From positions 4,611,501 through 4,675,500 of the forward strand of contig NZ_CP139979.1 of the NCBI RefSeq assembly GCF_034424525.1: a DNA stretch of 64,000 bases, in the 5' to 3' direction. Below the pieces are notes generated by a model. It searched no databases and had not been told where the DNA came from. It worked only from the letters and a program-made list of their open reading frames with translations. A program made the translations under genes and the position numbers. Of this stretch, positions 41,969 through 62,692 are shown piece by piece; the first letter of the stretch is position 1; each line of letters begins with the position of its first letter. This stretch comes from Sphingobium yanoikuyae. GTDB lineage: Bacteria; Pseudomonadota; Alphaproteobacteria; Sphingomonadales; Sphingomonadaceae.

Positions 41969-41974
41969 TCGACC

Positions 41975-42003
41975 GCACCGCCGCGCGATGCGCGCGGCGG
42001 TGC
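41975..42003 (+). terminator. hairpin, possible terminator between luxR and luxI
   Basis: A 12-bp perfect stem GCACCGCCGCGC / GCGCGGCGGTGC with a 5-base loop lies 6 bases after the luxR stop. No T run follows. Confidence 0.5.
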
Positions 42004-42082
42004 CATCCCCCTTTCTGGGTATAGGCGGGGTCGGGCTGCGATGATGTCATGCGTGCATGTTCAATCATGACAGGAACAGCAC

Positions 42083-42709: not shown

Positions 42710-43578
42710 TGCGCCTACAGGCTTGGGACATCAGCATGCGGGAGACGCTGCTGCGAGACGGCTACTGCGTCATCGAGGATGCGCTGCCGCCAGACGTCAT
42801 CCATGCGCTCAATGCAGATCTTGAACCCAGTTTCGCCGCCACCCCGCTCTGCCAGGGACGCTTCTATGGCGAGAGGACCAGGCGCTTTGGCGGCCTGCTC
42901 AAGCGCTCGCGCGACGCGCAGGCGCTCGTCCTCAACCCGGTCATCATGGACCTGGTCGAGGCCGTGCTGAAGCCCGCCTGCGACCGGATCCAGCTCAATG
43001 TCATGCAGGCGATCGAGATACTGCCCGGCCCAGCCCAGCAATTGCCGCATCGCGATCATAGCATGTGGCAGGGTGCCAAGGGGGCGCATGAATATCTTGT
43101 CAATGTGATCTGGCCGCTCGATGCCTTCTCCCGCGAAAATGTTGCGACACTTGTCTACCCCGGCAGCCATGGCGAAGCCGGCATGGCCAGGGCTGGACAG
43201 GAGGAACCCATCGTCGCCCAATGCCCGGCGGGCAGCGCGATCTGCTTTCTTGGCTCGACGGCCCATGGTGCAGGCGCCAATATCAGCCAGAGCGCCAGGC
43301 GTGCCATCGTGGTCGGATACTGCCTTGGTTGGCTCAAGCCCTATGAGAATCATTGGCTCGCCTATCCGCCTGCAGTGGCCAGACATTTCAGTCCCGAACT
43401 TGCGGCGCTGGTCGGCTATGCCCAGCATCGCCCCAATCTGGGCAATTATGAAGGTCAGTGCCCGTCGATCCTGCTCGGTGACAATCTGCCCGACCATGTC
43501 GGTGCGATCGATGCGCTGCGGCCCGATCAGGAGGCGCTGCTGGCCGCGTATTTGGAAAGCGCTGGAGAAAAGGCATGA
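42706..43578 (+). CDS. phytanoyl-CoA dioxygenase family protein
   Basis: A 290-residue Fe(II)/2-oxoglutarate oxygenase. The iron site is formed by HRDHSMWQGAKG near residue 125 (His-x-Asp) and a distal His, probably in GSTAHGAGANIS near residue 190, followed by the Arg of the 2-oxoglutarate site. Sphingomonad luxI genes are often followed by such a phyH gene, so it may modify the signal or its acyl chain; this is inference. It overlaps luxI and gntR by 4 bases each, making an operon. Confidence 0.88.
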   Translation: MMRLQAWDISMRETLLRDGYCVIEDALPPDVIHALNADLEPSFAATPLCQGRFYGERTRRFGGLLKRSRDAQALVLNPVIMDLVEAVLKPACDRIQLNVMQAIEILPGPAQQLPHRDHSMWQGAKGAHEYLVNVIWPLDAFSRENVATLVYPGSHGEAGMARAGQEEPIVAQCPAGSAICFLGSTAHGAGANISQSARRAIVVGYCLGWLKPYENHWLAYPPAVARHFSPELAALVGYAQHRPNLGNYEGQCPSILLGDNLPDHVGAIDALRPDQEALLAAYLESAGEKA

Positions 43579-44174
43579 GCCCGGCCCATGTGCTCGAGCC
43601 CACCTATGATGCGCTGCGCCGGCGGCTGATTGCCGGTGCCTGGCCGTCGGGCTTTCGCCTCGAGGCGACCAAGCTGGCGATGGAGCTGGGCGTCAGCATC
43701 ACCCCTGTGCGCGACAGTCTCAGTCGCCTTTCGGGCGAGCGGCTGGTCCAGGCCACGGCAGGGATCGGCTTCCATGTGCCCCGTCTCGATGCCGCCGATA
43801 TCAGCCAGTTGCTCGACTGGCACCAGATGCTGCTCGGCATCGCGGTGCAGCGGCTCGAAACCAACCAGGCCGCGCTGACCATTCCCCATGGCCATAATGG
43901 CATCGCGGATCATAGCGCGATCCTGTTCGGTTCGATCGGCATGGCGGCCGGCAATGGCGAACTGGACCGGGCGGTCGCCAATGCGGCGGCGCGGCTTGGC
44001 CCCTATCGCCGTATGGAAACCGAATTGCTGGCCGACGCCCCAGCCGAAATCGAGCGGATCGACCAATTTGCGCACGCCGGGAGATGGCAGGCGCTCAAGG
44101 CGCTCCTGGAGCATTATCATGAACGCCGGCGCGCGATCGCGTCGCAATTGGCCCAGGCGGTTCGCGACAGCTGA
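43575..44174 (+). CDS. GntR family transcriptional regulator
   Basis: A 199-residue protein with an N-terminal winged helix (LEPTYDALRRRLIAGAWPSG, LAMELGVSITPVRDSLSRLS) and an FCD-like helical effector domain. Its overlap with phyH (ATGA) shows joint translation with the quorum-sensing operon. The ligand is unknown; a fatty or hydroxy acid would fit the phyH neighbour. Confidence 0.88.
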   Translation: MSPAHVLEPTYDALRRRLIAGAWPSGFRLEATKLAMELGVSITPVRDSLSRLSGERLVQATAGIGFHVPRLDAADISQLLDWHQMLLGIAVQRLETNQAALTIPHGHNGIADHSAILFGSIGMAAGNGELDRAVANAAARLGPYRRMETELLADAPAEIERIDQFAHAGRWQALKALLEHYHERRRAIASQLAQAVRDS

Positions 44175-44335
44175 TTGCGCGCAATCGACGGGGCCAAGGT
44201 CAAGGCCGGCACGATCATCCTCGCGTTTCCAATCCCGGCCCCGATCATCGCTGAAAAAGCGTTTGGAATTGCAACGCAATATCGCCTGAGGGAAGATGCC
44301 CCCACCCCGAAGGCCGAGAGGTTCCAGACGCACGC

Positions 44336-44905
44336 ATGACCGAGACGCAATTTGATCGGCTGACGCCTCGCGAGTGCCAATGCCTGCTGATGGTGCGCGA
44401 TCTCAAAAGTTCGGAGGATATTGCCCGCGCCCTCAATATCAGGCCCGGCACCGTCAACACCTATATCCGCGACGCGGTCGTCAAGCTGGGCGCGCGCGAC
44501 CGCCGGCATGCGGCCCTGCTCTATGCCGAGCATCTGGCCCGGATCGTGCCGCCATCTACCACTAGCGCCCCCGAGAAAATAGGGGGCGATTTGATAGGTC
44601 TAGCCGATCAGGCCGATCCTGCAGCAGCTGTGCCACACGCCCAGAACGCCATCGATCGGTCCAGGCCGGAGGATGGTCTTGAGGGCGAGAGGCGGTCCGT
44701 CACCCCGCCTCGCGGGCAGGTCAATCTCGGCCTGCTCGTGCGGGAAATTCTCGATGGAACGAGACCGGACGGGATGACGCTGGTTACGCGGTCGCTTCTC
44801 ACTCTGGCGGTCGCGATCGCGATCGGCTTCTGCTTCTTCGCGATCAGCGCTGGCCTAGGCATGCTATTCAGCATTGCCGATTTTCTCCGCCGCCTCTCCC
44901 ACTGA
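44336..44905 (+). CDS. LuxR-type helix-turn-helix protein with C-terminal membrane helix
   Basis: A 189-residue protein: GerE-like helix-turn-helix at residues 8-60 (LTPRECQCLLMVRDLKSSED, IRPGTVNTYIRDAVVKLGAR), a disordered middle, and a C-terminal hydrophobic helix (LLTLAVAIAIGFCFFAISAG). A membrane-anchored regulator without a sensor domain is unusual; such genes are found on sphingomonad mobile elements. No partner is known. Confidence 0.75.
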   Translation: MTETQFDRLTPRECQCLLMVRDLKSSEDIARALNIRPGTVNTYIRDAVVKLGARDRRHAALLYAEHLARIVPPSTTSAPEKIGGDLIGLADQADPAAAVPHAQNAIDRSRPEDGLEGERRSVTPPRGQVNLGLLVREILDGTRPDGMTLVTRSLLTLAVAIAIGFCFFAISAGLGMLFSIADFLRRLSH

Positions 44906-46467: not shown

Positions 46468-47415
46468 ATGATGCGGACCGATCTGGATCATTTGCCCGGC
46501 GACAAACAGCGCGAGCTCGAACGGGTCGTGCGGATCATCTTCGAGGAATTCGAGGATGCGCTGGCGCTCGCCAACCATGGCTGGAAGAAGCGCGGCCGGA
46601 TCGAGAAGATCATTCTCTATGGCAGCTATGCCAGGGGCGGATGGGTCGACGAACCGCACACCGCCAAGGGCTATCAGTCCGACTATGACATTCTCATCAT
46701 CGTCAATGACAAGCGGCTGACCGAGCGGGTCGACTATTGGCTCAAGCTCGAGGACCGCTTCAATCGCGAACTGGCGATCACCCACGCGATCCGTACCCCG
46801 GTCAATTTCATTGTCCATACGCTGCAGGAGGTGAATGACGGTCTGGCCCATGGCCGCTATTTCTTCATGGACGTGCGCGAAGACGGCATCGCGCTCTATC
46901 AGGTCGAAGACAGCGAGCTCCATGTTCCCAAGCCAAAGACGCCCGACCAGGCGCTTGCCATGGCACAGGAATATTTCGAGGAGTGGTTTCCTACGGCAAA
47001 CCATTTCCACGCGTCCGCTTTGCATTCCGCGTCGCAAGGTTGGCTAAAAAAAGCGGCATTTGACATGCATCAGGCCACTGAACGGCTCTATCACTGCGTG
47101 CTGCTCGTCACGACCTTCTACACGCCCCATGTCCATAATATCGGATTCCTGCGCACACAGGCGGAGCGGCTGGATCGCCGGCTGGTCGATGTCTGGCCGC
47201 GCGAGCGGCGCATCGATCAGGCACGCTGGGAAAAGCTCAAAGAGGCTTATGTGAAGGCCCGCTATTCCAAGCATTACAAGATCAGCGAAGCGGAACTCAG
47301 CTGGCTTGGCAGACAGGTCGAGGATCTGGGCTGTGTGGTGCATGAAGTCTGCGCCGAACGGATAGCCGAGTTGAAGCGGACTGCCGGCGTTCTCGCCCGA
47401 ACATCCAGGACCTGA
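46468..47415 (+). CDS. nucleotidyltransferase-HEPN fusion protein
   Basis: A 315-residue two-domain protein. The N-terminal minimal nucleotidyltransferase has GSYARGGW near residue 50 and SDYDILIIV near residue 72, the metal-binding Asp-x-Asp. The C-terminal HEPN domain (about 170-310) has ASQGWLKKAAFDMHQATERL and YSKHYKISEAELSWL. In separate-gene form such pairs (MNT/HEPN) are toxin-antitoxin systems where AMP addition blocks the HEPN RNase; here they are one chain. A canonical Rx4-6H RNase motif is not clear, so the nuclease may be inactive. Confidence 0.82.
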   Translation: MMRTDLDHLPGDKQRELERVVRIIFEEFEDALALANHGWKKRGRIEKIILYGSYARGGWVDEPHTAKGYQSDYDILIIVNDKRLTERVDYWLKLEDRFNRELAITHAIRTPVNFIVHTLQEVNDGLAHGRYFFMDVREDGIALYQVEDSELHVPKPKTPDQALAMAQEYFEEWFPTANHFHASALHSASQGWLKKAAFDMHQATERLYHCVLLVTTFYTPHVHNIGFLRTQAERLDRRLVDVWPRERRIDQARWEKLKEAYVKARYSKHYKISEAELSWLGRQVEDLGCVVHEVCAERIAELKRTAGVLARTSRT

Positions 47416-49097: not shown

Positions 49098-49856
49098 TTA
49101 GTCTGGCAGCCGGACTCCGTTCCACGCGAACAGCCCGCCACTGTCTTGCGGTGTAAGCCCATCGAGCACATCGAGCAGCCGCTCCGCAGCATATTCCGGC
49201 GTGAAGATTTTTCCGGTCGAAATGCGGGCGGTGAAGGGAGCGGAAAGGGCGCTCCTTACGGTGCCGGGATGGAGGGCAGCGGCGATGGCCTGGGGATGTG
49301 TCCGCCCCATCTCGATCGCGAAATTTCGGATCATCATGTTCAGTGCTGCCTTGCTTGCCCGATAGGCATGCCAACCGCCAAGCCGGTTATCGCCGATCGA
49401 CCCGACCTTTGCTGAGAGCACAGCGAAGATGGCGCGTCGATCTTTCGCAAGCCGTGGCAGGACATGTTTGGCGATGAGAGCGGGGCCGATAGCATTTATC
49501 AAATAGCTTCGTGCGAGTGCTTTGGCGTCCAGGGCACGCATCGTCTTTTCCGGAGCGATTGCCGCCACCTGATCGTGCAACATGCCGGTGCAGACAAATA
49601 TCAGGTCGAGCGAGCTTGGCAGAGTTGCTGCTGCCGCGGCAATCGACGCCTCATTCTCCAGGTCGAAGCTGAAGGGCACGCAGTCCGGGGCCGGGACAGA
49701 TCGACCTTTTCGCGAGCCGGTGTGGACCGAACTGAACCGTCCACCTTGCGCGAGACGGAGCGCAATGGCCTGGCCGATCGCGCCACTCGCGCCGAATATC
49801 GCCGCCGTTGCGGGTCGGGCCAGATATTTGCCTGTCTCATTTTGCAAAGCAGTCAT
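49098..49856 (-). CDS. SDR family oxidoreductase
   Basis: A 252-residue short-chain dehydrogenase with AAIFGASGAIGQAIALRLAQ as the nucleotide loop and AVLSAKVGSIGDNRLGGWHA followed by YRASKAALNMMIRNFA as the Ser and YxxxK catalytic site. The relative ending (GGLFAWNGVRLPD) is typical of the CsgA/YbjS-like group found next to FAD oxidoreductases and photolyases. Four-base overlap with the FAD oxidoreductase gene upstream. Confidence 0.88.
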   Translation of the reverse strand: MTALQNETGKYLARPATAAIFGASGAIGQAIALRLAQGGRFSSVHTGSRKGRSVPAPDCVPFSFDLENEASIAAAAATLPSSLDLIFVCTGMLHDQVAAIAPEKTMRALDAKALARSYLINAIGPALIAKHVLPRLAKDRRAIFAVLSAKVGSIGDNRLGGWHAYRASKAALNMMIRNFAIEMGRTHPQAIAAALHPGTVRSALSAPFTARISTGKIFTPEYAAERLLDVLDGLTPQDSGGLFAWNGVRLPD

Positions 49857-50812
49857 CGTGCGACGGCTCCATTGACGCTAGCGTCGATCGGTTGCGACAG
49901 CATTGTGTCAGCAAGCAGGACGCCCGAAAGCCATGCGCCCTCGACCGTCGGTGAATGACACCAGTCTCCGCAGGCACCCAAGCCTATGCCAGGATTCCAG
50001 ATGATCCTGCTCGACTGCGCATAGGGCTGCGAGAACCGCCAGCGATGGGCCTTCAAAAATGTGGGGGCAGGGAGCCTGATCTGGAAAAGTCGCGCAAAGG
50101 CGTCGAGAAGATACGCGGCAGCCTCAGGCGGCGACCATTCCAGATGATCCTGGGACCAGTGGCTGTTGGCGTGCAATATCCAACATTCACCATCACCCCT
50201 TTCAGGTTTGGACCTGTTGCATGCAACCATCGAGAAAATATCGACGTTGGTAGCGAACGGCGTTGGTACATCCAGTTGATGCGGAAATTCGACCATAACC
50301 GCCCAGCAAGGTGAGGACCTGACAGACGCGGCCTCGCGCGCAGCTTCGAGATCGTGAAGAGACAGCAGTGGTGCCGCCTGCTCAGCCGGAACGGCGATCA
50401 CCACCGTGTCGAATGGACCTACGCAATCTCCCTCTGCCTGGATCATCCAACTTGAATCTTCCCTGACAAGAGATTGAACCCGGAACTCAAAATGGACGTC
50501 AAAACGCCGGCTTTGCTCGCGAACCAAGGTGGCCATTGCGGGCACCCCTACCATCGCATTCCCTGGGCCGTCGCTCCAACGCGCAACCCAGCCAGCCTTT
50601 CGCCAACGCCCGACTTCAGTTCGGAATCTGGGATCCCTTGCCGTGAACCAAGGCGCTCCCAAATCCCATGATGATGATCCAATTGCGACCGTTGTGAGCC
50701 TGCCACCGGGACGATGCCCCTTGTCGACGAGCATGATTTCACCGCAATGACGCAGCCGTCCTGCGCAGGCCAATCCTGCAATGCCAGCCCCGATGATGCC
50801 AATGCGAGGCAT
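49853..50812 (-). CDS. FAD-dependent oxidoreductase (renalase-like)
   Basis: A 319-residue flavoprotein: IGIIGAGIAGLACAGRLRHC binds FAD, RPGGRLTT follows, and FAD contact near the C-terminus in GLGACGDWCHSPTVEGAWLS. Renalase-like bacterial enzymes oxidise reduced-nicotinamide isomers; the true substrate here is unknown. It lies one base downstream of folE and overlaps the SDR gene, in the light-responsive gene order known from several proteobacteria. Confidence 0.88.
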   Translation of the reverse strand: MPRIGIIGAGIAGLACAGRLRHCGEIMLVDKGHRPGGRLTTVAIGSSSWDLGAPWFTARDPRFRTEVGRWRKAGWVARWSDGPGNAMVGVPAMATLVREQSRRFDVHFEFRVQSLVREDSSWMIQAEGDCVGPFDTVVIAVPAEQAAPLLSLHDLEAAREAASVRSSPCWAVMVEFPHQLDVPTPFATNVDIFSMVACNRSKPERGDGECWILHANSHWSQDHLEWSPPEAAAYLLDAFARLFQIRLPAPTFLKAHRWRFSQPYAQSSRIIWNPGIGLGACGDWCHSPTVEGAWLSGVLLADTMLSQPIDASVNGAVAR

Positions 50813-50813
50813 T

Positions 50814-51446
50814 TTATTGAGACTGCATGAGTGTCATGATCTCCCTACGGCTTGTGGGATCATCGCGGAAGCAGCCGAGCATCTTGCTGGTCATCATCGT
50901 TACGCCATGGGTACGTACACCGCGGCCGGTCATGCAACCATGACTTGCCTTGATGATGACAGCGACCCCATGGGGCTTGAGATTGTTCCAGATACAGTCC
51001 GCAATTTGAGCGGTAAGGCGCTCCTGGACCTGGAGGCGCCGGGCATATCCGTTCAGAACACGGGCCAACTTGGATATGCCCACGACCCTGTCCTTGGGAA
51101 GGTAGGCTATCGAGGCGGTTCCCGTGATTGGCGCAAGATGATGCTCACAGTGGGACTGGAAAGGGATGTCACGCAAGAGGACTATTTCATCATATCCTCC
51201 TACCTCATCGAACGTGCGAGAAAGATAGGTGGCTGGATCGATCTCATATCCGTTGCAATATTCTTTCCATGCACGCGTCACGCGCGCAGGCGTATCTCGA
51301 AGGCCTTCACGATCAGGATCGTCGCCCGTCCATCGCAGAAGCGTTCGGATAGCATGGTGAACTTCTTGGGGAGCTGAGAGAGGCTCTGGACCGCTTTTCG
51401 AGCTATCCTCATCGATAGGGACGAACCCGGCAGTAACGAAATTCAT
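50814..51446 (-). CDS. folE: GTP cyclohydrolase I
   Basis: A 210-residue enzyme that converts GTP to dihydroneopterin triphosphate, the first step of folate and pterin synthesis. Zinc ligands are in SHCEHHLAPITG near residue 100 and SHGCMTGRGVRTHG near residue 170, with QVQERLTAQIAD between. In light-response clusters a second folE supplies the pterin antenna for photolyases. It is divergent from the LOV-HTH gene with 107 bases between them, so they probably share a control region. Confidence 0.95.
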   Translation of the reverse strand: MNFVTAGFVPIDEDSSKSGPEPLSAPQEVHHAIRTLLRWTGDDPDREGLRDTPARVTRAWKEYCNGYEIDPATYLSRTFDEVGGYDEIVLLRDIPFQSHCEHHLAPITGTASIAYLPKDRVVGISKLARVLNGYARRLQVQERLTAQIADCIWNNLKPHGVAVIIKASHGCMTGRGVRTHGVTMMTSKMLGCFRDDPTSRREIMTLMQSQ

Positions 51447-51553
51447 GACAGCTCTCGAATATCTGGCCGCCTGCCCCTTGCAAGCGATGCGAAGAGGGCA
51501 TGCTAGTCAACTGAACAGGGCTCTGCGATATGACCAAATGGGAAGGAGTTGCA
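51447..51553. promoter_or_regulatory. divergent control region between folE and the LOV-HTH gene
   Basis: This 107-bp gap must hold both promoters. No perfect palindrome was seen. By analogy with EL222, which binds DNA when lit, this is the first place to look for its operator. Confidence 0.4.
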
Positions 51554-52144
51554 GTGACCAGAATATCGGATCCCAATTCTCTGATTTGCAACAGCCAGGT
51601 AGCGGCCGTGGTCAGCGATCCTCGGCGCGCCGACAATCCTATCGTGGCCTGCAATCCTGCCTTTGTTGAGTTGACGGGCTACTCCCAAGAAGAGGTCATA
51701 GGCCGAAACTGCCGGTTCCTGCGCGGTGCCGGAACCGAGGCCGAGCAGACGGAGATGTTGCGCGACGCTGTAGCCCAGGTGCGACCTGTCATGGTCGAGC
51801 TGATTAATTACCGTAAAAACGGCACCCCTTTTCGCAACGCTGTAATGGTTGCGCCGCTTTTCGATGACGAAGGCGAACTGGAATTCTTTCTGGGTTCTCA
51901 GATGGCCATCGACGATCGGCCGGTCAGCCGCCATCAGCAGGCACGCATGCGAATTGAAAATCTTAGTGGCCGTCAGCGTCAAATAATCGAGGCGCTTGCC
52001 CAAGGGCGCCTAAACAAACAAATCGCGTTCGAGCTGGGGGTTACCGAGCGGACGGTGAAGATGCACCGCGCTGCCGTTCTTCGAACTTTGGAAGTGCGGT
52101 CGGTGGCAGAGGCAATCCGGATTGCGATAGAAGCTGGCCTCTAG
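51554..52144 (+). CDS. LOV-domain blue-light photoreceptor with LuxR-type HTH (EL222-like)
   Basis: A 196-residue protein. The N-terminal LOV domain (about residues 15-125) has the flavin-binding GRNCRFLRG with the reactive Cys, NPAFVELTGYSQEEVI before it, and the flipping Gln in FFLGSQMAID. The C-terminal GerE-type helix-turn-helix has LSGRQRQIIEALAQGRLNKQ and IAFELGVTERTVKMHRAAVL. In EL222 light forms a Cys-flavin bond, freeing the HTH to bind DNA. The start is GTG 51554, since GGAAGGAG lies five bases before it; ATG 51530 has no such site. It ends tail to tail with the crtE part. Confidence 0.93.
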   Translation: MTRISDPNSLICNSQVAAVVSDPRRADNPIVACNPAFVELTGYSQEEVIGRNCRFLRGAGTEAEQTEMLRDAVAQVRPVMVELINYRKNGTPFRNAVMVAPLFDDEGELEFFLGSQMAIDDRPVSRHQQARMRIENLSGRQRQIIEALAQGRLNKQIAFELGVTERTVKMHRAAVLRTLEVRSVAEAIRIAIEAGL

Positions 52145-53494
52145 AGGTCGCGCCGCGCAGCGAACCGGGCCAAAGTCCTCAATCGGGCAGCGCTTATGCC
52201 AAACGGCTCCAGAGCGCTATCGCATGCGCGCAGGAGCGCTTCCACTTCAAGAGCTGTAGTTTCTGCTCCCAGGACCGTGACGCCGGTCTCCCGGCTTTTA
52301 TCTTTGTCCTTGTTTACGGCCTTTCCGACAATGGCTGCATCGCCCTCAGAATCGAGGAGGTCGTCCCTGAGCTGGAAAAGAAGGCCGAGGTCGGTAGCAT
52401 AGGACTTTAACGCGCTGCGCGTTTGCGCATTGCTTCGGCCCAGCAACATGCCTGCTTCCACTGCGAACCGCACAAGTGCGCCAGTTTTCCGATTGAGGCA
52501 ATCGATGAGCCCTTCTCGTGAAAGGTCTGCTTCGGGATACAGATCCATCATCTGACCGCCGGCAAGTCCATCCTGACCGATGCATTTCGCAAGGCCCAGA
52601 ACAAGTTCGCTGCGCACGGCCGCATCGGCATGGGTGCGCGGATCAGAGAGAATTTCAAAGGCCAGTGCCAGCAGAGCATCGCCCGCCAGGACCGCTGTGG
52701 CCTCGTCGAACCGACGATGAACGGTAGGTCGTCCTCGCCGAAGATCGTCATCGTCCATGCAGGGCAAATCGTCGTGGACGAGGGACTGAGCATGTACGCA
52801 CTCAATTGCCGCAGCGACACGCAGTGCCGAACCCCGGTCACCCCCCAACATTTCAGCCACAGCCAGGGCAAGAGCGGCTCTAAAACGCTTTCCTCCTGCC
52901 GTAGCAGCGTAGCGCATCGCGTCGGCGAGACGAATATTGCGTGTGGGGCAGTCACCGATCGCATCCATCAGCACCGTGTCGACTGCTGCACGATCATCAG
53001 CCAGAATCTTGGGCAGATGCGGAGGGGCTTGCTCGGTCGTTACCACTGAAATGGGTCGAAATCGGATTGATTCTTCCGGTCCAGCCATTTCCTCGCGCAA
53101 GAAGCCAAGGCCATCAAGCCAGGAACATATTTCTTCAATCGCCTCGTCCGGGGCGGATGCGGCTGCGCTCAACCCTATTGTAGAGGCTTTCGCCAGTGGA
53201 ATATGAGCCAAATCTTCAGCATCTTCGATCAGAAACGCCTGCGGACAATCAGCCGCCAGCGCCGCTTCGACCAGTCGGCGCGCATTCGAAGATGTGGGAT
53301 CTCCAACAATCAACATGATATCGCAACGCGGCGCTATTTGCGTCACAGCAGATTGCCGGTTTGTGGTTGCATAGCAGATGTCGCTTGAACGCGGACCGAC
53401 GCAATTGGAGAATCGAGCCTCTATCGCCTCGATCAATCGAGCTGAATCGGCGACTGAAAAGGTCGTCTGGACGGCGTAAGCTACTGGCGTTTCA
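52141..53494 (-). pseudogene. C-terminal IspH part fused to CrtE (geranylgeranyl diphosphate synthase), 3' part of an IS-split gene
   Basis: The frame first encodes the C-terminal IspH lobe (ETPVAYAVQTTFSVADSARL, SDICYATTNRQSAVTQIAP with the third iron-sulfur Cys, GDPTSSNARRLVEAA). Without any stop it then runs into a polyprenyl synthase of about 280 residues with GGKRFRAALALAVAEML, VHDDLPCMDDDDLRRGRP (first Asp motif) and LFQLRDDLLDSEGD (second). The IspH half is cut off from its N-terminus by the IS256 element. An internal Met at 52968 could still start an active CrtE-type enzyme if transcribed. Ends overlapping the LOV gene stop. Confidence 0.88.
53486..53494 (+). repeat. IS256 target site duplication, left copy
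   Basis: GGCGTTTCA directly left of the element; identical 9 bases follow the right end. Confidence 0.9.
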
Positions 53495-54853
53495 GGTCGT
53501 GTCCCACGGGGTGGTGTAGGAAGGTTTCTCTGAGAGGGTGGCCACCGTCGATCTTCTGGTAGGGTTCGGATGCGAACTCGAACCTGGAGAAGAAGACGAT
53601 GACCGACGACAGAATGGCCCTTGTTGAGCTGATTGAGCAAGGGGCAGACAGCGATTTGGTGCGCGATATGCTGGCATTTGCCGCCGAGCGCATGATGGAT
53701 CTGGAGATTGAGGCCAGAACGGGTGCGGCTGCGGGCAGTCGCAGCCCGGCGCGGCTCAACCACCGCAACGGCTATCGCGAACGGGGCTGGGACACTCGGG
53801 CCGGCCGGATCGAGCTGGCGATCCCCAAGCTCAGGAAGGGCAGTTACTTCCCGAGCTTCCTTGAGCCACGCCGCACGGCTGAGAAGGCGTTGGCGGCGGT
53901 GATCCAGGAAGCCTACGTCCACGGTGTCTCGACTCGCTCGGTCGACGATCTGGTCAAGGCGATGGGCGCCAGCGGCGTCTCGAAGAGCCAGGTGAGCCGT
54001 CTGGTGGCCGAGATCGACGAACGGGTGAACGCCTTCCTGCAGCGGCCGATCGAGGGCGAGTGGCCCTACCTGTGGATCGACGCCACCTACCTCAAGGTCC
54101 GCGAGGGCGGGCGGATCGTCTCGACGGCGGCGATAATCGCCGTCGGCGTCAACACCGATGGTCGGCGCGAGGTTCTGGGCGTTGCCACCGGCCCTTCAGA
54201 AGCGGAACCCTTCTGGAAAGCCTTCCTGCGCTCGCTCGCCGACCGGGGACTTCGCGGGGTAAAGCTGGTCATCGCGGACGACCACAAGGGGTTGCGCGCC
54301 GCCGCCAGCAAGGTGTTCGCCGCGAGCCAGCAACGCTGCCGGGTCCACTGGATGCGCAATGCGCTGGCACATGCCGCGCCCAAGCAGCGACCGGCAGTCA
54401 TCGCCATGATCAAGACGATCTTTGCGCAGGAAACGGCTGAAGCGGCTCACCAGCAATGGGAACAGGTCGCCGATGCCCTGCGCGAGAAGTTCCCGAAGCT
54501 GGCCGACATGATGGCCGGATCGCGCGAGGACGTGCTTGCCTACATGACCTTCCCGAAGGAGCACTGGGCGCAGATCGCGTCGACCAACCCGCTGGAAAGG
54601 GTGAACAAGGAGATCAAGCGAAGGGCCGATGTCATCGGCATCTTTCCGAATGACGCCGCCGTCGTCCGCCTCGTCGGAGCACTCATGCTGGAACAGAATG
54701 ATGAGTGGGCGGTGTCACGCCGTTACATGACGCTGGAAACCCTCGGCTCGGTAAGCCATAACCCCATTGTCAGCCTGCCAGCTCTGGCTGCCTGACCCGA
54801 ACCTGATCCTACTGCGGATCGACGGTTCCTACACCACCCCGTGGGACACGACC
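53495..54853 (+). mobile_element. complete IS256-family insertion sequence in ispH-crtE
   Basis: 1359 bp with perfect 28-bp terminal inverted repeats (GGTCGTGTCCCACGGGGTGG... at the left end, its reverse at the right). One transposase gene reads opposite to the target gene. Nine-base target duplications flank it. Removing 1368 bp (the element plus one duplication copy) restores the ispH-crtE frame exactly. Confidence 0.95.
53599..54795 (+). CDS. IS256 family transposase
   Basis: A 398-residue DDE transposase of the mutator (IS256) type: NHRNGYRERGWDTRAGRIEL near residue 53, the first Asp in WPYLWIDATYLKVREGG, the signature VIADDHKGLRAAASKVFAA with the second Asp, and the region STNPLERVNKEIKRRADVIG with the catalytic Glu. 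The frame is full length and intact. GAGAAGAAG lies before the ATG. Confidence 0.95.
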   Translation: MTDDRMALVELIEQGADSDLVRDMLAFAAERMMDLEIEARTGAAAGSRSPARLNHRNGYRERGWDTRAGRIELAIPKLRKGSYFPSFLEPRRTAEKALAAVIQEAYVHGVSTRSVDDLVKAMGASGVSKSQVSRLVAEIDERVNAFLQRPIEGEWPYLWIDATYLKVREGGRIVSTAAIIAVGVNTDGRREVLGVATGPSEAEPFWKAFLRSLADRGLRGVKLVIADDHKGLRAAASKVFAASQQRCRVHWMRNALAHAAPKQRPAVIAMIKTIFAQETAEAAHQQWEQVADALREKFPKLADMMAGSREDVLAYMTFPKEHWAQIASTNPLERVNKEIKRRADVIGIFPNDAAVVRLVGALMLEQNDEWAVSRRYMTLETLGSVSHNPIVSLPALAA

Positions 54854-55377
54854 GGCGTTTCATCTGGCAGGGGGAGGGCGCTGACACTGGCCAGATCCGC
54901 TACTATCGAAATGGCGTCAGGGGGCAATTGTCCAGTGGTTCCGATTATCTCGGGATGGTCCGCATGGCCGACGAGCAAGACGTGGCGGCCTTGCGAATTC
55001 CATTGAGCGACCTCGGAATGAATTTTTGCGACCAAAGGGCAAATGGCATCCACGACGCGCAAACCACGTTTATCCGCCTGCGCTTTCACGGCGGCTGCAC
55101 TTCCATGCGCGGACAATATCGTGACTGCGCCTTGAGGGATTTCGCTCACATCCTCAACAAAAACGGCGCCTAATTCCTCAAGCTGCTTTAGCACCCTTCG
55201 GTTGTGCACGATCGCATGGCGCACATAGACAGGAGCACCATGGACATGCAGCGCGTCCTCAACGGCTGCAATCGCACGTCGTACGCCAGCGCAAAAGCCA
55301 CGCGGATTGGCCAACAGCACCCGTCTGGGCTCAGGAGAAAAAGCCTGATCTTCTCTATCGTCTGGTGCGCTGATCAT
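54854..55377 (-). pseudogene. ispH: N-terminal part of IspH, cut by IS256
   Basis: About 175 codons of 4-hydroxy-3-methylbut-2-enyl diphosphate reductase, the last step of the MEP isoprenoid pathway. It has the iron-sulfur Cys in LANPRGFCAGVRRA, SAHGSAAAVKAQ, the second Cys in DAICPLVAKIHSE and the VGHADHPEIIGTTGQ loop with catalytic His-Pro-Glu. It stops within IS DNA after PLPDETPVV. The intact gene would have been a 622-residue IspH-CrtE fusion. A separate housekeeping ispH must exist if the cell depends on the MEP pathway. Divergent from crtI. Confidence 0.92.
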
Positions 55378-55510
55378 CGCCTCATCCTATCTATCTGACA
55401 TATTTTCAGTTTTTGGCTTTGAATACCATACTCCCCTTTGGACAGGTTGTGGCACTCCACCAATTCCATAGCGATGCCTTGAACCAGCATTCCTCAAACC
55501 AAGGCGATAC

Positions 55511-57001
55511 ATGATGTCATCAAAGCCTTCTGCAATCGTCATCGGATCAGGCTTTGGGGGACTTGCGCTTGCAATCCGCTTGCAAAGTGCCGGTATCGGC
55601 ACGACGCTCATCGAGGCACGCGATCGCCCAGGCGGGCGAGCCTATCGCTGGGAAAGAGAAGGTTACATATTCGACGCCGGTCCGACCGTGATTACCGATC
55701 CGGCCTGCCTGGAAGAATTATGGATGCTTTCAGGCAATCGAATGGATGAGGATGTGACCCTCAAGCCGGTGAGCCCCTTTTATAGGCTTGTCTGGAACGA
55801 TGGCACACAGTTCGATTATTCCAATGATGACGCGCTGTTGGAAAAAGAGATTGCCAAGCTCGATGCGAAAGACATCGAAGGCTACCACCGGTTTCTGGAC
55901 TATGCGCGGTCAGTTTACCAGGAGGGCTACGTAAAGCTGGGTGCAGTCCCATTTCTTGATTTCAAGAGCATGTTGAAAGCGGCACCCGCCCTTGCCCGGC
56001 ACAAAGCATGGCGGTCTGTCTATGCAATCTTATCGAGCTTCGTGGGGAACGAAAAGCTACGCCAGGCCCTGTCATTCCACACTTTGCTGGTCGGGGGCAA
56101 TCCGATGAGCACGAGTGGCATCTACGCCCTTATCCACCACTTGGAGCGGGAGGGAGGAATATGGTGGACGACTGGCGGCACAAACGCACTCGTCGATGGG
56201 ATGGTGGCGCTTTTTGAGCGATTGGGCGGAGCGCTCATGCTGAATGAACCGGTACGGGAAATTTTACATGAAGGGCGTCGCGTAACTGGCGTGGTCACGC
56301 AGGATGGACGTCGCATTCATGCAGATCAGATCGCCTCCAACGCGGATGTTGTCAGCACCTATAAAATGATCGTCGGGTCTTCTCACGCATTGAGGAAAAG
56401 GCATTCACTCGAAGCTAAGCGATTTTCTCCCAGTCTTTTTGTTTTACATATGGGAATTAAAGGAAATTTTCCGAAAATCGCGCACCACTCGATTCTATTT
56501 TCCGATCGCTACGGTCCCTTATTGGACGACATTTACAAGGGGGGGCGCTTGCCGAAGGACCCGTCAATCTATTTGCATAATCCCGGAGCCAGTGACGCAA
56601 GCGTGGCTCCTGCCGGCAAATCGGTCTTGTACGCGCTCGCCCCTGTGCCGCATTTGGGCGCTGCGGCAGTCAATTGGGCGGAGGAGGGCGACCGCTATCG
56701 CCAAATCATCATAGGCCGCATTCGCGACCTGTTGATCCCCGATATCGAGGATCGGATCGAAATCTGCTTTCACTATACGCCGGAAGATTTCCAAAGGGAT
56801 TTGGACGCTCATCTCGGTAGCGCTTTCAGTCTAGAACCGGTGCTGACGCAGAGCGCCTGGTTTCGAGCACATAATCGTGATGACCGATTTGAAAATCTTT
56901 TCCTGGTAGGAGCAGGTACCCATCCCGGCGCGGGCATCCCGGGCGTTGTCGGAAGTGCCAAAGCGACTGCAGGGCTCATGATGCAAACCGGGAGGCCCTG
57001 A
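55511..57001 (+). CDS. crtI: phytoene desaturase
   Basis: A 496-residue FAD enzyme that converts phytoene to lycopene in carotenoid synthesis. FAD loop: AIVIGSGFGGLALAIRLQSA near residue 8, GRAYRWEREGYIFDAGPTVI follows, and the C-terminal CrtI box LFLVGAGTHPGAGIPGVVGS with AKATAGLMM. CAAGGCG precedes the ATG 55511 (55514 also possible). It is divergent from the ispH-crtE gene across 133 bases. No crtB, crtY or other carotenoid genes follow. Confidence 0.95.
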   Translation: MMSSKPSAIVIGSGFGGLALAIRLQSAGIGTTLIEARDRPGGRAYRWEREGYIFDAGPTVITDPACLEELWMLSGNRMDEDVTLKPVSPFYRLVWNDGTQFDYSNDDALLEKEIAKLDAKDIEGYHRFLDYARSVYQEGYVKLGAVPFLDFKSMLKAAPALARHKAWRSVYAILSSFVGNEKLRQALSFHTLLVGGNPMSTSGIYALIHHLEREGGIWWTTGGTNALVDGMVALFERLGGALMLNEPVREILHEGRRVTGVVTQDGRRIHADQIASNADVVSTYKMIVGSSHALRKRHSLEAKRFSPSLFVLHMGIKGNFPKIAHHSILFSDRYGPLLDDIYKGGRLPKDPSIYLHNPGASDASVAPAGKSVLYALAPVPHLGAAAVNWAEEGDRYRQIIIGRIRDLLIPDIEDRIEICFHYTPEDFQRDLDAHLGSAFSLEPVLTQSAWFRAHNRDDRFENLFLVGAGTHPGAGIPGVVGSAKATAGLMMQTGRP

Positions 57002-57069: not shown

Positions 57070-58710
57070 TTATCTTTCCAGCGCCAAGATCTGCTGCTCG
57101 GACAATAATTGCTGTTTCAGCATCCCGTAATCGACATCCTGCACGCTCCTGCCCTCCCGGATCGCGATGGATGCCGCAGCAGCGGCCGATTGGCCAAGGA
57201 TCATGAAGACGGGCTCCATTCGGATCGAGCCATAGGCAATGTGCGATGCCGACAAGGCGACCGGGACCAGTAGGTTGGTCGCTTCCTGGCGCTTCGGGAT
57301 GATCGCATCATAGCTGATCGGATAGGCGCGTTCAGGGCTGACCTCGATATTCCCTTCGTTGCGCGCAAAGCCTCTTGCATCGACGATCCGCCGGACATTG
57401 TGCGAGTCCATATTATATGATCCCATGCCGACCGGCCTGGGCGTCGCCTTCGTGCCGCGCAAATGCGGTTCGGCCATGACAAAGTCCGAAACCATGCGCC
57501 GCGCTTCGCGCACATAAACTTCCCGCGGCCAGTTACCATTGCCGGTGAATTCATCCTTGCACAGGCCCCAGCGCGACATTTCGGTGCGCGTCTCGGCCGG
57601 TACGCCAGGATCGTTTGCCATGAACCACAGCAGCCCCTGCTGATAGTCCACATGCTCCTGAATGATGGCAGCCCGTTCGGTGTCGGTTCCCTCGGGATAG
57701 CGGTAATTCATGCCGATATCATCGAAGGAGAAGGCACCGAAATTGTTGGTGTCGGTCTTGCCGTTGGGGATGCGATCGAATTTGCGGAAAAAGTCGCGAT
57801 AGCCCGCATCCATATAGCGTTTGAGCAACGCATATTGGCGCGGATCATAATGGCGCGGCCTGGGAAAAGGCGTGCGGTTGGCTGGCACGTCGGTCAGGCA
57901 CATGCGGAATGTATAGGCCTGTATGCGATGGTCGCCCGTGCCGTCCGGCGCGATCGGATCTGCCGTTACCCGCGGCAACAGGCCGCTGCCGGGCTTACCC
58001 GGGACGACATAGGGATCGACGTCCAGTGTGAATTGATGATTGGTCGTGTTGGCCATCTGGACGCCGTTCAACGTCTCGCCGTAGGTGGCATTTGCTTCGC
58101 GCCCGACCGCAAAGCCCACCCCTGCCCCCGCCATCAGATCGCCTTCATAGCTGGCATCAATGAAGACATGTCCGGCAAAACGACGACCAGTCCCGGAACG
58201 GAAGGCGACAACCCGACCGGCTTTCACCTCCACGGCCCCGTCCCGCCGATCGATCGGCTGGGATCGAACGACGGTAACACCGGCCTCCTTCAGCCAGGCC
58301 TCGTAAATCCCCTCAGCCACCTTGGGCTCGAACTGCCACATCGCATCGTCATTGACGAAATTCTCGGCGTTCTCCGGACGCCTGGCAAAGGTCCAGGCAG
58401 CCGGATCATCATAATGACGCTTCACCCGCCGATAAAATTCGAGCGAGAGGCCACCAATGGCGCGATGATTGCCGGTGTCGGACCAGCCCAGGCCATTGGT
58501 CGTCATGCCGCCGACATAGGCGTCGCGACAGACGAGCAGCACCGACCGGCCCAGCCGCCGTGCCTCGACCGCCGCAATGACGCCGGCCGAGGTGCAGCCA
58601 TATATCACGATATCCGCCGGTGTTTGTGCAACCGTGCTGGCGTCGGCCGCGCCGGCCAGCAGAAGGGCCGCGGCGAGCATGGGGCGAAGCGCCTTGATCC
58701 TGCCAGCCAT
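57070..58710 (-). CDS. exported FAD-dependent oxidoreductase
   Basis: A 546-residue protein with a signal peptide (residues 1-24, PMLAAALLLAGAADA), an FAD loop DIVIYGCTSAGVIAAVEARR near residue 33, and family motifs YVGGMTTNGLGWSDTGNHRA, FIDASYEGDLMAGAGVGFAVGR near residue 185, and a C-terminal VPVALSASHIAYGSIRMEPV and MILGQSAAAAASIAI. The group (FAD-dependent oxidoreductase, pfam12831-like) is common beside TonB receptors for plant polymers. The start codon overlaps the TonB receptor stop, so the genes are co-translated. Substrate unknown. Confidence 0.85.
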   Translation of the reverse strand: MAGRIKALRPMLAAALLLAGAADASTVAQTPADIVIYGCTSAGVIAAVEARRLGRSVLLVCRDAYVGGMTTNGLGWSDTGNHRAIGGLSLEFYRRVKRHYDDPAAWTFARRPENAENFVNDDAMWQFEPKVAEGIYEAWLKEAGVTVVRSQPIDRRDGAVEVKAGRVVAFRSGTGRRFAGHVFIDASYEGDLMAGAGVGFAVGREANATYGETLNGVQMANTTNHQFTLDVDPYVVPGKPGSGLLPRVTADPIAPDGTGDHRIQAYTFRMCLTDVPANRTPFPRPRHYDPRQYALLKRYMDAGYRDFFRKFDRIPNGKTDTNNFGAFSFDDIGMNYRYPEGTDTERAAIIQEHVDYQQGLLWFMANDPGVPAETRTEMSRWGLCKDEFTGNGNWPREVYVREARRMVSDFVMAEPHLRGTKATPRPVGMGSYNMDSHNVRRIVDARGFARNEGNIEVSPERAYPISYDAIIPKRQEATNLLVPVALSASHIAYGSIRMEPVFMILGQSAAAAASIAIREGRSVQDVDYGMLKQQLLSEQQILALER

Positions 58711-61673
58711 CAGAAAGTCGCCGCCACGCCGAAGAAGAAACGGCGGTCCTCTCGCAGCGAACTGAGCAGGCGCGCCGGATCCTGGAGATATTGCCGTTCG
58801 ACGGACCGGGTGAGATTGATGGCCTCTGCCGTCAGGCGGACGGTCTTGGTGAGGTTGATCTGGGCCGAAGCGTCGAGTTGCCCCCTGGCCTGCATATAGG
58901 AGCTGCCGCCCGATGCGGCGCTGCCCTGCCCCTGCAGATATTTGCTGCGGTGGATATAGGCGACCCGGAAGGACAGCAATTCGTCCTCATAATAGCCGAT
59001 GAGATTATAGCTATGCTTCGACAGGCCCGGCAATGGCAGGCCGCGTTGGGTCGCCTCGTCTACCAGCGGCGTCTTGCTGTCGACGAAGGTATAATTGGCC
59101 TGAATGCCGAGATTGTCGAAGGGCGCCGGCAGGAAACGCAGCGCGTGCTGATAGGCCAATTCGAATCCCTTGATGGTACCCGACTTGCCATTGACCGGCT
59201 GGGTAATCTGGAACAGGTCGTCCGGCCCCGTCGACAGGCCGGGCACGAATTCGGGCCGGGTCGTGTTGATGGTGAAGGAACTGACGTCCTTGTAGAAGCC
59301 GGCAAGCGTCAGCGCACTGGACGGTGCAAAATACCATTCGAGTGTCGCATCATATTGCGTTGCCTGGAACGGCCGCAGGGCGGGATTGCCACGCGATCCC
59401 GTGCGGGCGACGATGAATGGAATGAAGCTCACCCCGACATCGTTAAGACTGGGACGCGCGACCACCTTGGCAGCGGCAGCGCGGAACATGAGGCTGGGCG
59501 ACAGCTCGAGCGAGAGGTTGGCGCTCGGCAACCAATAGTCGAAGCGCGATTTCGACGCGGTTGCCTGTGTGTCCGACAGATAGCCCGAGGATATGCGCTC
59601 GATACTGATATAGCGCACCCCCGCATTGCCGGTGATCGGTATCGATCCGACCTCGCTCTTGAAATTGGCCCGGACATAGAAGGCGAGCGTGTCCTGATCC
59701 ACGTCGCGGATCGACACGCGGCCAAGCGGGATCGTATCGGCGCGAGGGATCGGCAGGCCAAATGCATCGCGTGCAACATCCTTGTCCACGGTCCCGGTCA
59801 GCAAGTCGCGTGGGAAATCGCCCGAGGCTCCAGGAAAGAAGCTGCTCATGCTATTGTCATAATTGAGCCCCGGCATCTCATCGACGGTGATGATGCCATC
59901 GCCATTCTTGTCACCAACGGCCAGCAGGCTTGCCGCGGAGGGGACGCTTTGTGGCGATTCCGAATAAAATTTGATCTTCTCGTAGCGCGAGCCAACCTGG
60001 ATCGAGCTGAGCAAGCCCCAGTCGGTGCGGATGTCGAAATCGACACGGCCGTCATAGCCGCTGTTGTTGGTGATATTGTCGCCATCGAAGATCGATGCCA
60101 GCTGATATTGCGCCGGATCGTTACGGTCGAAATTGGTGTCGAGCGAAAGGTTGGGCACCGGGCCGCCCCCCGAGAAATCATAGCTCGCATTGGTGACATT
60201 GCCGGCACGCGGGACCACCACATAGGTGAAGGATGCGCCAGGGCCACCATCCGTGCCCTTGCCCTTGCTGTAGGAAGCGTCCGCCGACATCTTCACGACA
60301 TCACCGTCATATTTGGTCGAGAAACCAAGATTGGTGGATCGGAACTCGGTCGGCTCGTCATAGATGAGCGGCCGCAGCGTCACGCCGGTGAAGGTGCCGC
60401 TGACGACGGTGCCATGTTCGTCAGCAACAGCATCGACGTCATTATTATTGAAGAGAATCTGGTAATTGGCGCTGTTGCGTTCCCGTTTCAGCCGCGAATA
60501 GGTGCCGTCGAGAATGATCTCCCAATTGTCGGCAGGACGAAACTGCAGCGAACTGTTGAGCGTCAGGCGCTGCTCCCGCCGATCATAGATGCGCGCCATG
60601 AAACGATTCGGCCGGAACAGGCCGGGGTCGTCGACGCCGTCACCATCGCCGTCGATGGCATCAGTACGGGTCCAGCCGCCGGAATCGAATGACTGTCCCT
60701 GGGTATGGGTGTTGGAATAGGCGATGCTGGCAAGGACGCCGAAGCGATCGTCGAAATTCTTCGAGATGAGGGCTGAGCCTCGGTAGCCAAGATGATCGGC
60801 CTGGTCGGTATAGGCACCCTGAAGCCGCCCGCTGATGACAAGGTCGTCAAGGTCGAGCGGACGCTTGGTCTTGAGGTTCACGGTGGCGCCAAGCGCCCCT
60901 TCGGGCATGTCGGCGGTGGGAGACTTCGAGACGACGATGCTGCCGATGATTTCCGGACTGATCGATTCTAGCGACGCACTGCCACCTGCACCCGGCCCCA
61001 GGAAGGTGCGGCCGTTGATTTCCAGGCGGTTCTGGGAAATGCCGCGGACGGTGAAGTTCGAGCCATCGCCTTCGCGCCGCGTGATCTGGACGCCGGTGAT
61101 GCGGCTCATGGATTCAGCGACATTCTGGTCAGGCAGCTTGCCGATATCCTGCGCCGTGATGACATCGACGATGTTGCTGGCGCGGCGCTTCACATTGATC
61201 GACTGCTGCAACGAGCCGCGAATGCCGGTGACAATGATGTCCTGCGCCGCCTGATTGTCGGAAGAGACTATGTCATCTGGTGCAGCGCCCGCCGCTTCAC
61301 TCCCCTGTGGATTGGGCTCACCGGCCGGCATCATGGTGAAAGCGGCTGCCGGGGTCGGACCGACCTTGCCTCGCTTGAGCACGATGGCGCTGCCGACCCT
61401 GACCATGACGAGATCCGTGCCTGCAAGCAGGCGCTGAAGCGCCTGCGACACATCCATTGCCCCTTTGATGCCGGAAATGGTGACACCCTCAGCTGTGGGG
61501 GCCGACACCAATATTTCGATACCCGCCTGTCTGGCAAAGAGCGGGATGCCGGTGCGCGCCGGTTGCGCGGGGATATCGAATCGCCGGACCTGGGCCGCCG
61601 CCTCTGCAGGCGAAGCCATGCTCCAGGCCAGGCTGGCTGAAGCCAACATAAAATAGGCGCGCGAAGCTCTCAT
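58710..61673 (-). CDS. TonB-dependent receptor with STN signalling domain
   Basis: A 987-residue outer-membrane receptor. Signal peptide residues 1-28, STN domain 33-85 (FDIPAQPARTGIPLFARQAG, ILVSAPTAEGVTISGIKG), plug domain about 135-260 (ASNIVDVITAQDIGKLPDQN, VAESMSRITGVQITRREGDG) and a beta-barrel to the C-terminal Phe (RRFFFGVAATF). The STN domain signals to FecR/sigma when substrate is bound. This large IgnoreTonB-type receptor class usually carries sugars or glycans in sphingomonads. GGGGAGG precedes ATG 61673. Confidence 0.9.
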   Translation of the reverse strand: MRASRAYFMLASASLAWSMASPAEAAAQVRRFDIPAQPARTGIPLFARQAGIEILVSAPTAEGVTISGIKGAMDVSQALQRLLAGTDLVMVRVGSAIVLKRGKVGPTPAAAFTMMPAGEPNPQGSEAAGAAPDDIVSSDNQAAQDIIVTGIRGSLQQSINVKRRASNIVDVITAQDIGKLPDQNVAESMSRITGVQITRREGDGSNFTVRGISQNRLEINGRTFLGPGAGGSASLESISPEIIGSIVVSKSPTADMPEGALGATVNLKTKRPLDLDDLVISGRLQGAYTDQADHLGYRGSALISKNFDDRFGVLASIAYSNTHTQGQSFDSGGWTRTDAIDGDGDGVDDPGLFRPNRFMARIYDRREQRLTLNSSLQFRPADNWEIILDGTYSRLKRERNSANYQILFNNNDVDAVADEHGTVVSGTFTGVTLRPLIYDEPTEFRSTNLGFSTKYDGDVVKMSADASYSKGKGTDGGPGASFTYVVVPRAGNVTNASYDFSGGGPVPNLSLDTNFDRNDPAQYQLASIFDGDNITNNSGYDGRVDFDIRTDWGLLSSIQVGSRYEKIKFYSESPQSVPSAASLLAVGDKNGDGIITVDEMPGLNYDNSMSSFFPGASGDFPRDLLTGTVDKDVARDAFGLPIPRADTIPLGRVSIRDVDQDTLAFYVRANFKSEVGSIPITGNAGVRYISIERISSGYLSDTQATASKSRFDYWLPSANLSLELSPSLMFRAAAAKVVARPSLNDVGVSFIPFIVARTGSRGNPALRPFQATQYDATLEWYFAPSSALTLAGFYKDVSSFTINTTRPEFVPGLSTGPDDLFQITQPVNGKSGTIKGFELAYQHALRFLPAPFDNLGIQANYTFVDSKTPLVDEATQRGLPLPGLSKHSYNLIGYYEDELLSFRVAYIHRSKYLQGQGSAASGGSSYMQARGQLDASAQINLTKTVRLTAEAINLTRSVERQYLQDPARLLSSLREDRRFFFGVAATF

Positions 61674-61747
61674 ACATCCTCCCCTGTCTGGCGCCCTGTT
61701 TTCTGGTGCGCTCTCGACCATCAAGAGACGGGCGGGTCGGTTTTCCG

Positions 61748-62692
61748 TCAGCTGCCTGCGATCTTTTTTCGCGAAAGGCGAATTTCCTCGGCTGTCATAC
61801 TTACCGAAATATCGAGGGAAATGGCCAGGGTCCGCGCAAAACCTGCCGGATTATCGATCCGGAACAGGCCGACCAGCTTCTCATTGGCAAGGCTTGGGTC
61901 GGACAGCACCAATTGCTGCTTGTTGTAGCGATTGAACCGGGCAATGGCGTCAGACAATGTGTCCCCTTCGAGCGCGATTTCACCCGCTCGCCAGGCGAGC
62001 GACCTCTCTATCGCCTGCGGTGAATTGCCAGTGGCGGGAACCAGCGCGCCCCGCTCGAAGGTCGCAAAATCCCCGGCCCTGAGGATGGTCATGGCCCCTG
62101 CCCCGTTACGGGCCCAGGTTGCCACGATCCCCTCGGTCACGGCAATCTGCACGCCATTTTCGGTCCGACTGACGGAAAAGGCCGTGCCGATCGCCCTTGC
62201 CTGCGCAATGCCGGCATCGACGATGAAGGGACGCCGTCGGTCCTTTGCAACCTGAAACCAGGCCTGACCTCTTGCCAGCGTGACGCGTCGGCTTTCCTCG
62301 TCGAGGGCAACCCGCAGGTCGCTACCACTGTCGATCGTTGCGACCGAACCATCTTCGAGCGGAAGACGCCGAATTTCACCGCGCTCGGTCGCGATATGCT
62401 CCCCCGTCCAGCGCGAAAACCCGACCATGCCCGCGATCGCCGCCGCCATGGCACCACCGACCCCGGCCGCCATCCATCGACGCCGCGTCCAATGGGAGCC
62501 GTGCTCCGGCCCGGCGTCGGCAACAAGCGCTTCCTCCGCCAGGGCCAGGGCAGCCTGCGCACGCAGCAGCGCCCCGGCATGGAGCCGGTCCTGTGCGAGC
62601 CATGCGTCAAGAGCGGCCTGTTGATGCGCATCCAAGGGATGGCGCATGGCCCAGTTGGCAGCTGCCTCGTCAATGCTTTCGCGCACGGACAC
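61748..62692 (-). CDS. FecR family anti-sigma/transmembrane regulator
   Basis: A 314-residue protein: N-terminal cytoplasmic domain (EAAANWAMRHPLDAHQQAAL, the DUF4880 part), one membrane helix near residue 75-95 (WMAAGVGGAMAAAIAGMVGF), and a periplasmic FecR domain (GEIRRLPLEDGSVATIDSGS, YRIGTAFSV-like RAIGTAFSVSRTENGVQIAV) with a C-terminal STN-interacting tail. It passes the receptor's signal to the ECF sigma encoded just upstream, which overlaps it by 23 bases. Confidence 0.9.
   Translation of the reverse strand: MSVRESIDEAAANWAMRHPLDAHQQAALDAWLAQDRLHAGALLRAQAALALAEEALVADAGPEHGSHWTRRRWMAAGVGGAMAAAIAGMVGFSRWTGEHIATERGEIRRLPLEDGSVATIDSGSDLRVALDEESRRVTLARGQAWFQVAKDRRRPFIVDAGIAQARAIGTAFSVSRTENGVQIAVTEGIVATWARNGAGAMTILRAGDFATFERGALVPATGNSPQAIERSLAWRAGEIALEGDTLSDAIARFNRYNKQQLVLSDPSLANEKLVGLFRIDNPAGFARTLAISLDISVSMTAEEIRLSRKKIAGS

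Follow-up and report, generated by a model that had tools for sequence, protein, structure and literature searches.

A Carotenoid-Linked Fusion of IspH and a Prenyl Diphosphate Synthase in Sphingomonadaceae, Interrupted by an IS256 Element in Sphingobium yanoikuyae

A 64,000-nucleotide stretch of the Sphingobium yanoikuyae genome (NCBI RefSeq assembly GCF_034424525.1, contig NZ_CP139979.1, positions 4,611,501 to 4,675,500 of the forward strand; hereafter the window, from whose first letter its features are numbered) contains a gene that joins IspH, the enzyme at the end of the methylerythritol phosphate (MEP) pathway, to a trans-prenyl diphosphate synthase. In the window, this gene is split by an insertion element of the IS256 family. 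The fusion is a natural, conserved protein, which occurs without interruption in other genomes and on a plasmid. By our estimate there are about two chances in three that the intact gene is a bifunctional isoprenoid supplier for carotenoid biosynthesis, perhaps regulated by light, which was recently knocked out in the strain from which the window derives (the window strain).

Results and Discussion

The fusion gene lies on the reverse strand in two pieces, both delimited by open reading frames, frame joining, and Pfam matches. The 5′ piece (54854..55377) encodes the N-terminal portion of IspH, including two of its three cluster cysteines, and the 3′ piece (52141..53494) encodes the rest of IspH with the third cysteine, followed by the prenyl diphosphate synthase. 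Between them sits a 1359-bp element (53495..54853) with perfect inverted ends of 28 bp, flanked by two identical copies of a 9-bp target duplication (53486..53494 and 54854..54862). The transposase of this element (53599..54795, forward strand) matches PF00872 and the NCBIfam model for IS256 (NF033543; 358 bits, cut-off 150), and this match, the inverted ends, and the target duplication together assign the element to the IS256 family. Removal of the element and one 9-bp repeat (1368 bp) leaves a single frame of 622 codons with one terminal stop; the other two frames of the same strand contain 24 and 26 stops in the joined sequence. The joined frame encodes IspH and then a trans-prenyl diphosphate synthase: LytB matches both gene pieces (150 and 112 bits), and polyprenyl_synt (PF00348) matches the downstream piece (171 bits), which places the C-terminal half among the trans-prenyl diphosphate synthases. 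The in-frame join, the Pfam domains, and the transposase match confirm the proposal of an earlier note on this DNA that one IspH–prenyl synthase gene has been split by IS256.

The insertion point falls inside IspH, at about codons 172–175. The genome of the window (G000) holds seven identical copies of the element, including the one described here, and two more at 88–89% identity. The identity of the seven copies fits a recent move of the element; to judge from these copies, the element at 53495–54853 is probably still active. We infer that the window strain does not make the fused enzyme, the IspH half having been cut by this recent insertion. The remnant is close in length to an IspH cut to residues 1–171, which is inactive according to the accessible part of PMC4746011. 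Alternatively, the insertion might matter little if expression starting within the element still yielded the downstream piece as a free prenyl synthase. A frame of 593 aa is indeed open from a GTG within the element to the stop of the gene, and a database entry of 291 aa corresponds to the synthase half alone. However, the 593-aa frame lies on the strand opposite the transposase gene, and the strain is without the IspH half either way. That the insertion matters little for this reason is quite unlikely in our view.

To place the fusion among its relatives, we used the downstream piece as query in a database search, which matched 7992 of 8000 candidates; all homologue counts given here refer to the best 120 of these 7992. 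Both Pfam domains are present in 119 of the 120, and 112 are at least 595 residues long. The best match, P0001 (622 residues, 57 member sequences), is unbroken across the insertion site and agrees with the joined frame at 621 of 622 residues. Uninterrupted fusions were also found in six other genomes. The fusion of one genome, G845, is identical in its aligned parts to P0046, a cluster named Sphingobium sp. DEHP117. A tblastn search of PLSDB returned one record that covers at least 80% of the fusion, namely the Sphingobium yanoikuyae plasmid pKN1, on which the gene is annotated as ispH only. Hence, the unbroken fusions that the earlier note had recommended searching for do exist, and with them we can eliminate the possibility, raised in the same note, that sequencing error or chance read-through created the fusion. 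The notion that sequencing or the joining of frames produced the fusion as an artefact is contradicted by six genomes, by pKN1, and by 112 database proteins, and has next to no chance of being correct.

The fusion is rare. Taking as carriers those genomes with a fusion match at E below 1e-100, we found it in 4 of 397 genomes in a sample of the family and in 4 of 94 in a sample of the genus. The two samples have 11 listed genomes in common, which gives 7 carriers among 480 distinct genomes. A class sample of 385 genomes, for which the best E-value per genome was available for all but three without a match, contained no fusion in some 380 other Alphaproteobacteria: the own genome scored 727 bits, and the next genome scored 413 bits with the IspH part alone. 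The names among the listed homologues include Novosphingobium, Sphingobium, Sphingosinicella, Erythrobacter, and one metagenome bin labelled Pseudomonas, a label that is unconfirmed. As far as sampled, the fusion is restricted to Sphingomonadaceae.

In maximum-likelihood trees, the 16 fusions included form one clade for each half with support of 100/100, apart from 29 unfused rows in the IspH tree and 59 in the synthase tree. The synthase tree comprises the best 75 rows and leaves out weaker unfused rows, matches shorter than 220 residues, and duplicates; in both trees, the ends of the rows other than the P proteins were set by query halves shifted by about 20 residues. Because each half forms one clade, a single fusion event followed by descent and transfer would fit these data. 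The fused IspH shares 46% of its residues with the separate IspH of its host and 45–54% with the IspH of other Alphaproteobacteria compared. A recent duplication of the host ispH can be excluded on the basis of this 46% identity and the separation of the fusion clade from the 29 unfused rows.

A Hyphomicrobiales bin, a Rhizomicrobium bin, and Caulobacter sp. S45 (L028, L029, and L030) link the same two functions in unfused form, ispH and a distinct prenyl synthase gene being arranged head to head, some 240–370 bases apart. We do not take these pairs for forerunners of the fusion, since their synthases carry Tyr at the chain-length position and their orientation is unfit for fusion by loss of a stop.

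Both halves of the protein look functional, to judge from conserved residues and substitution rates. P0001 scores 275 bits against the IspH equivalog model TIGR00216 (cut-off 187.85) and stays below the cut-offs of the PRK01045 models. It contains the three cluster cysteines (C29, C113, and C212), the HPE motif with H141 and E143, the SSN motif (S240, S241, and N242), and S285 of the pocket, residues with catalytic roles in IspH. Every IspH motif tested is present in 110–112 of the 112 homologues of at least 595 residues. Both Asp-rich motifs of the synthase half are present in 112 of 112. Comparison of seven intact loci gives a dN much lower than dS for each half, an estimate that is crude because dS exceeds 1 wherever it was computed, namely in 17 and 19 of 21 pairs for the two halves, and was not computable in the other 4 and 2.

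These features bear on whether the IspH half might be a redox or oxygen sensor, or a scaffold, rather than a working reductase. The four carrier genomes tested (G000, G061, G085, and G008) each have, besides the fusion, a separate ispH and two prenyl synthase genes, which answers in the affirmative the question whether a second ispH is found elsewhere in the genome of the window; in each of two fusion-free genomes of the same genus, we found a single ispH and two prenyl synthases. A sensor role has also been proposed for IspH–RPS1, a fusion with a ribosomal protein, in which IspH is catalytically active according to the part of PMC4746011 available. On the other hand, the fusion described here has kept its active-site motifs, and dN remains well below dS in its IspH half. 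We therefore consider a sensor or scaffold very unlikely.

The genomic context of the fusion was compared at eight loci, namely the window, six genomes (L127, L128, L129, L165, L166, and L167; L128 belongs to G085), and pKN1 (L168). A gene for a CrtI-family phytoene desaturase stands on the strand opposite the fusion at all eight; it is directly adjacent at seven, and crtZ and crtY lie between the two at L129. In the window, this divergent crtI occupies 55511..57001 on the forward strand (629 bits, cut-off 238). The fusion locus includes crtB and crtY at five of the eight. The link between the fusion and carotenoid genes is strong.

On its other side, the window fusion meets a convergent gene (51530..52144, forward strand) that overlaps its end by 4 bp and encodes a LOV-HTH blue-light regulator, identified from its open reading frame, its domains, and its match to EL222 (PDB 8a5r and 3p7n, 210 bits). 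With a LOV domain containing the cysteine motif and a C-terminal LuxR-type HTH domain, this regulator shares the architecture of EL222 and belongs to the EL222 type; the motif reads GRNCRFL both in the window and on pKN1. A complete LOV-HTH gene converges on the fusion at four of the eight loci (window, L166, L167, and L168), and a LOV-HTH gene or an HTH remnant follows the fusion at five. Beside the G085 fusion (9146–9484 of L128), we found the HTH part alone, the LOV part seemingly having been lost.

The 647-kb plasmid pKN1 carries crtI, the fusion, the LOV-HTH gene, a FAD-dependent oxidoreductase gene, and a short-chain dehydrogenase gene in the same order as the window, with identities of 81% for the LOV-HTH protein, 66% for the oxidoreductase, and 70% for the dehydrogenase. 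Since pKN1 repeats the gene order of the window, the cassette occurs on different replicons.

The following mechanism may be proposed. The N-terminal IspH would reduce 4-hydroxy-3-methylbut-2-enyl diphosphate (HMBPP) to isopentenyl diphosphate (IPP) and dimethylallyl diphosphate (DMAPP), and the C-terminal synthase would condense these two, most likely to geranylgeranyl diphosphate (GGPP), for the carotenoid pathway in which the divergent crtI takes part. The fusion would serve as an accessory supply line beside the housekeeping ispH and ispA. As the cassette often includes an EL222-type blue-light regulator, expression would probably be raised by light or photo-oxidative stress. In the window strain, the IS256 insertion would have cut the IspH half and left the housekeeping enzymes in place.

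Part of the evidence weighs against this proposal, beginning with the product of the synthase half. Its score against the CrtE model NF045685 is 210.5 bits, far from the cut-off of 460, and its score against the farnesyl diphosphate (FPP) synthase model NF045485 is 270.4 bits, just short of the cut-off of 275. The earlier note had called this half CrtE; a prenyl diphosphate synthase with both Asp-rich motifs it certainly is, but the CrtE model does not claim it and the FPP synthase model comes nearer. Could the synthase half then be an additional FPP synthase that increases isoprenoid flux in general, while GGPP is supplied from elsewhere? The model scores point that way, and carotenoid genes are present in members of the family that lack the fusion. 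However, in all 120 of the best-listed homologues, the residue five positions before the first Asp-rich motif is Gln in place of the usual Tyr or Phe. At the 96 comparison loci (L011–L106), this chain-length position is Tyr in 94, Phe in one, and Gln in one, and the Gln locus is itself a fusion. In FPP synthases, loss of the bulky aromatic residue at this position lengthens the product. Moreover, the linkage is to crtI, crtB, and crtY, genes of C40 carotenoids. The Gln residue and these neighbours make GGPP the likely product of the synthase half, and an FPP synthase appears unlikely.

Carotenoid genes without the fusion are also common, which limits what the linkage can mean. In one sample of 149 genomes of the family, 133 have a CrtY match at E below 1e-30 and four carry the fusion; 129 of the 145 fusion-free genomes have CrtY at this threshold. 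For the family at large, we can therefore rule out that the fusion is required for carotenoids. In two carriers, G061 and G008, the sole strong CrtY listed sits in the fusion locus. The genome of the window contains a further crtY, crtI, and crtB set about 100 kb away (contig C1, 4764001–4783000; L157), whose CrtI is 64% identical to that of the window. The fusion gene is accessory, not essential, and hence it does not follow, as the earlier note had supposed, that its disruption lowers carotenoid supply. Further points on the same side are that two near-identical entries in the database are incomplete, one of 391 aa and one of 291 aa that amounts to the synthase half only, and that the neighbours shared with pKN1 are not general: neither the genes for the oxidoreductase and the dehydrogenase nor folE has a counterpart that we could find at the six other genome loci.

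The regulatory part of the proposal was considered in light of the spacer between the fusion and crtI. A 16-bp element, MCCYWDGGRCAGGTKG, is present in this spacer at six of the eight loci (window, L128, L165, L166, L167, and L168), although the spacers resemble each other little outside it (49% mean column identity). Its distance to an invariant TA is fixed, and this TA could be the −10 element of crtI. The window copy (55434..55449, forward strand) is the sole exact match in its genome. Among nine genomes scanned, the exact pattern occurs once each in G000, G085, G791, G829, and G845, always in the fusion–crtI spacer, once outside the spacer in G008, and not at all in G061, G076, and G144. 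The pattern was spotted by eye and built from these very sites, which makes its presence there circular; its absence elsewhere and the fixed distance to TA are independent of that choice. With up to one mismatch allowed, the pattern is no longer specific compared with a reversed-pattern control in the same nine genomes (matches to control: G000 15:6, G791 3:1, G845 7:5, G829 3:1, G085 2:6, G061 7:5, G008 10:7, G076 4:4, G144 3:6).

The element and the regulator do not always occur together. G791 has the element, yet its genome contains no relative of the LOV-HTH protein at E below 1e-20; G061 has neither element nor LOV-HTH gene; the G008 spacer is without the element, and the LOV-domain match in that genome is unlinked. 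Given the case of G791, the element may serve a regulator other than the LOV-HTH protein. It also differs from the EL222 site consensus RGNCYWWRGNCY, as given in the part of PMC10521638 available. With up to one mismatch, this consensus is absent from the fusion–crtI spacers except for a single one-mismatch match in G085, and its four exact matches in the window, one of them at 52167 within the 3′ end of the fusion gene, are about as many as expected by chance by our estimate. An EL222 operator of the published kind was thus not found at the fusion promoter. A more specific version of the proposal, in which an HMBPP reductase–GGPP synthase hands IPP and DMAPP directly to elongation on one chain and forms with crtI an EL222-type blue-light regulon controlled through an operator unlike the published site, is doubtful at present; if true, it would provide a native target for this class of photoreceptors.

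Full-text searches, judged by listings and abstracts and with subscription papers mostly outside their reach, returned no publication on a fusion of IspH with a prenyl diphosphate synthase. IspH fusions with other partners are known (Rao et al. 2015, PMC4746011, in the part available). Close in layout are the IspH–UbiA fusions of sulfate reducers described there, which likewise place IspH at the N-terminus and a prenyl-using enzyme at the C-terminus; their partner is a membrane-bound UbiA-like transferase, whereas the fusion described here carries a trans-prenyl diphosphate synthase, occurs in Sphingomonadaceae, and is linked to carotenoid genes. By its architecture and its crt linkage, it can be classed as a "Rosetta stone" IspH fusion, in which the partner comes from the same pathway, and this partner is unlike those in the accessible part of PMC4746011. 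Within the searches made, IspH fusions are known and none joins IspH to a prenyl diphosphate synthase. We found no ispH match in the available portions of PMC2889829 and PMC3380023; the former includes, as supplementary material, a table of carotenoid fusion proteins.

The "crtE" of Sphingomonadales is also a trans-prenyl synthase thought to feed carotenoids. According to the text of PMC5989583 at hand, it is about 300 aa long in most strains and never stands with another crt gene in the 41 strains compared, in contrast to the fusion, which adjoins crtI. The role of crtE in colourless strains is left open there, and the same text contains no match to ispH or to a fusion. Two ispH copies have been reported in one Sphingomonas (PMC9950776, as far as available), and one of them might be such a fusion.

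The remaining neighbours of the fusion in the window are folE for GTP cyclohydrolase I (50814..51446), the FAD-dependent oxidoreductase gene (49853..50812), and the short-chain dehydrogenase gene (49098..49856), all on the reverse strand. Light-inducible clusters of Pseudomonas, in the part of PMC9758184 available, similarly hold a short-chain dehydrogenase and an FAD-dependent oxidoreductase in one light-inducible region and folE in another; those clusters are controlled by LitR, and that part of the paper names no crtI and shows no IspH fusion. Beside crtI (57070–62692), the window contains genes for an FAD-dependent oxidoreductase (PF12831), a TonB receptor, and FecR, perhaps an uptake locus. 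Further away, at 40949–44905, are a LuxR-type regulator with an autoinducer-binding domain, a PhyH dioxygenase, and another LuxR-HTH gene, and at 46468–47415 nucleotidyltransferase and HEPN domains are combined in one protein.

Conclusions

With both of its halves conserved, the fusion connects the end of the MEP pathway and the supply of carotenoids in a single chain, and it is relevant to what prenyl synthases do in Sphingomonadales. Substrate hand-over could be studied in it as a natural test case, and it might serve as a component in terpene engineering. The fusion locus also suggests a natural target for EL222-like regulators, and the window strain looks like a natural knock-out for comparison with its intact relatives.

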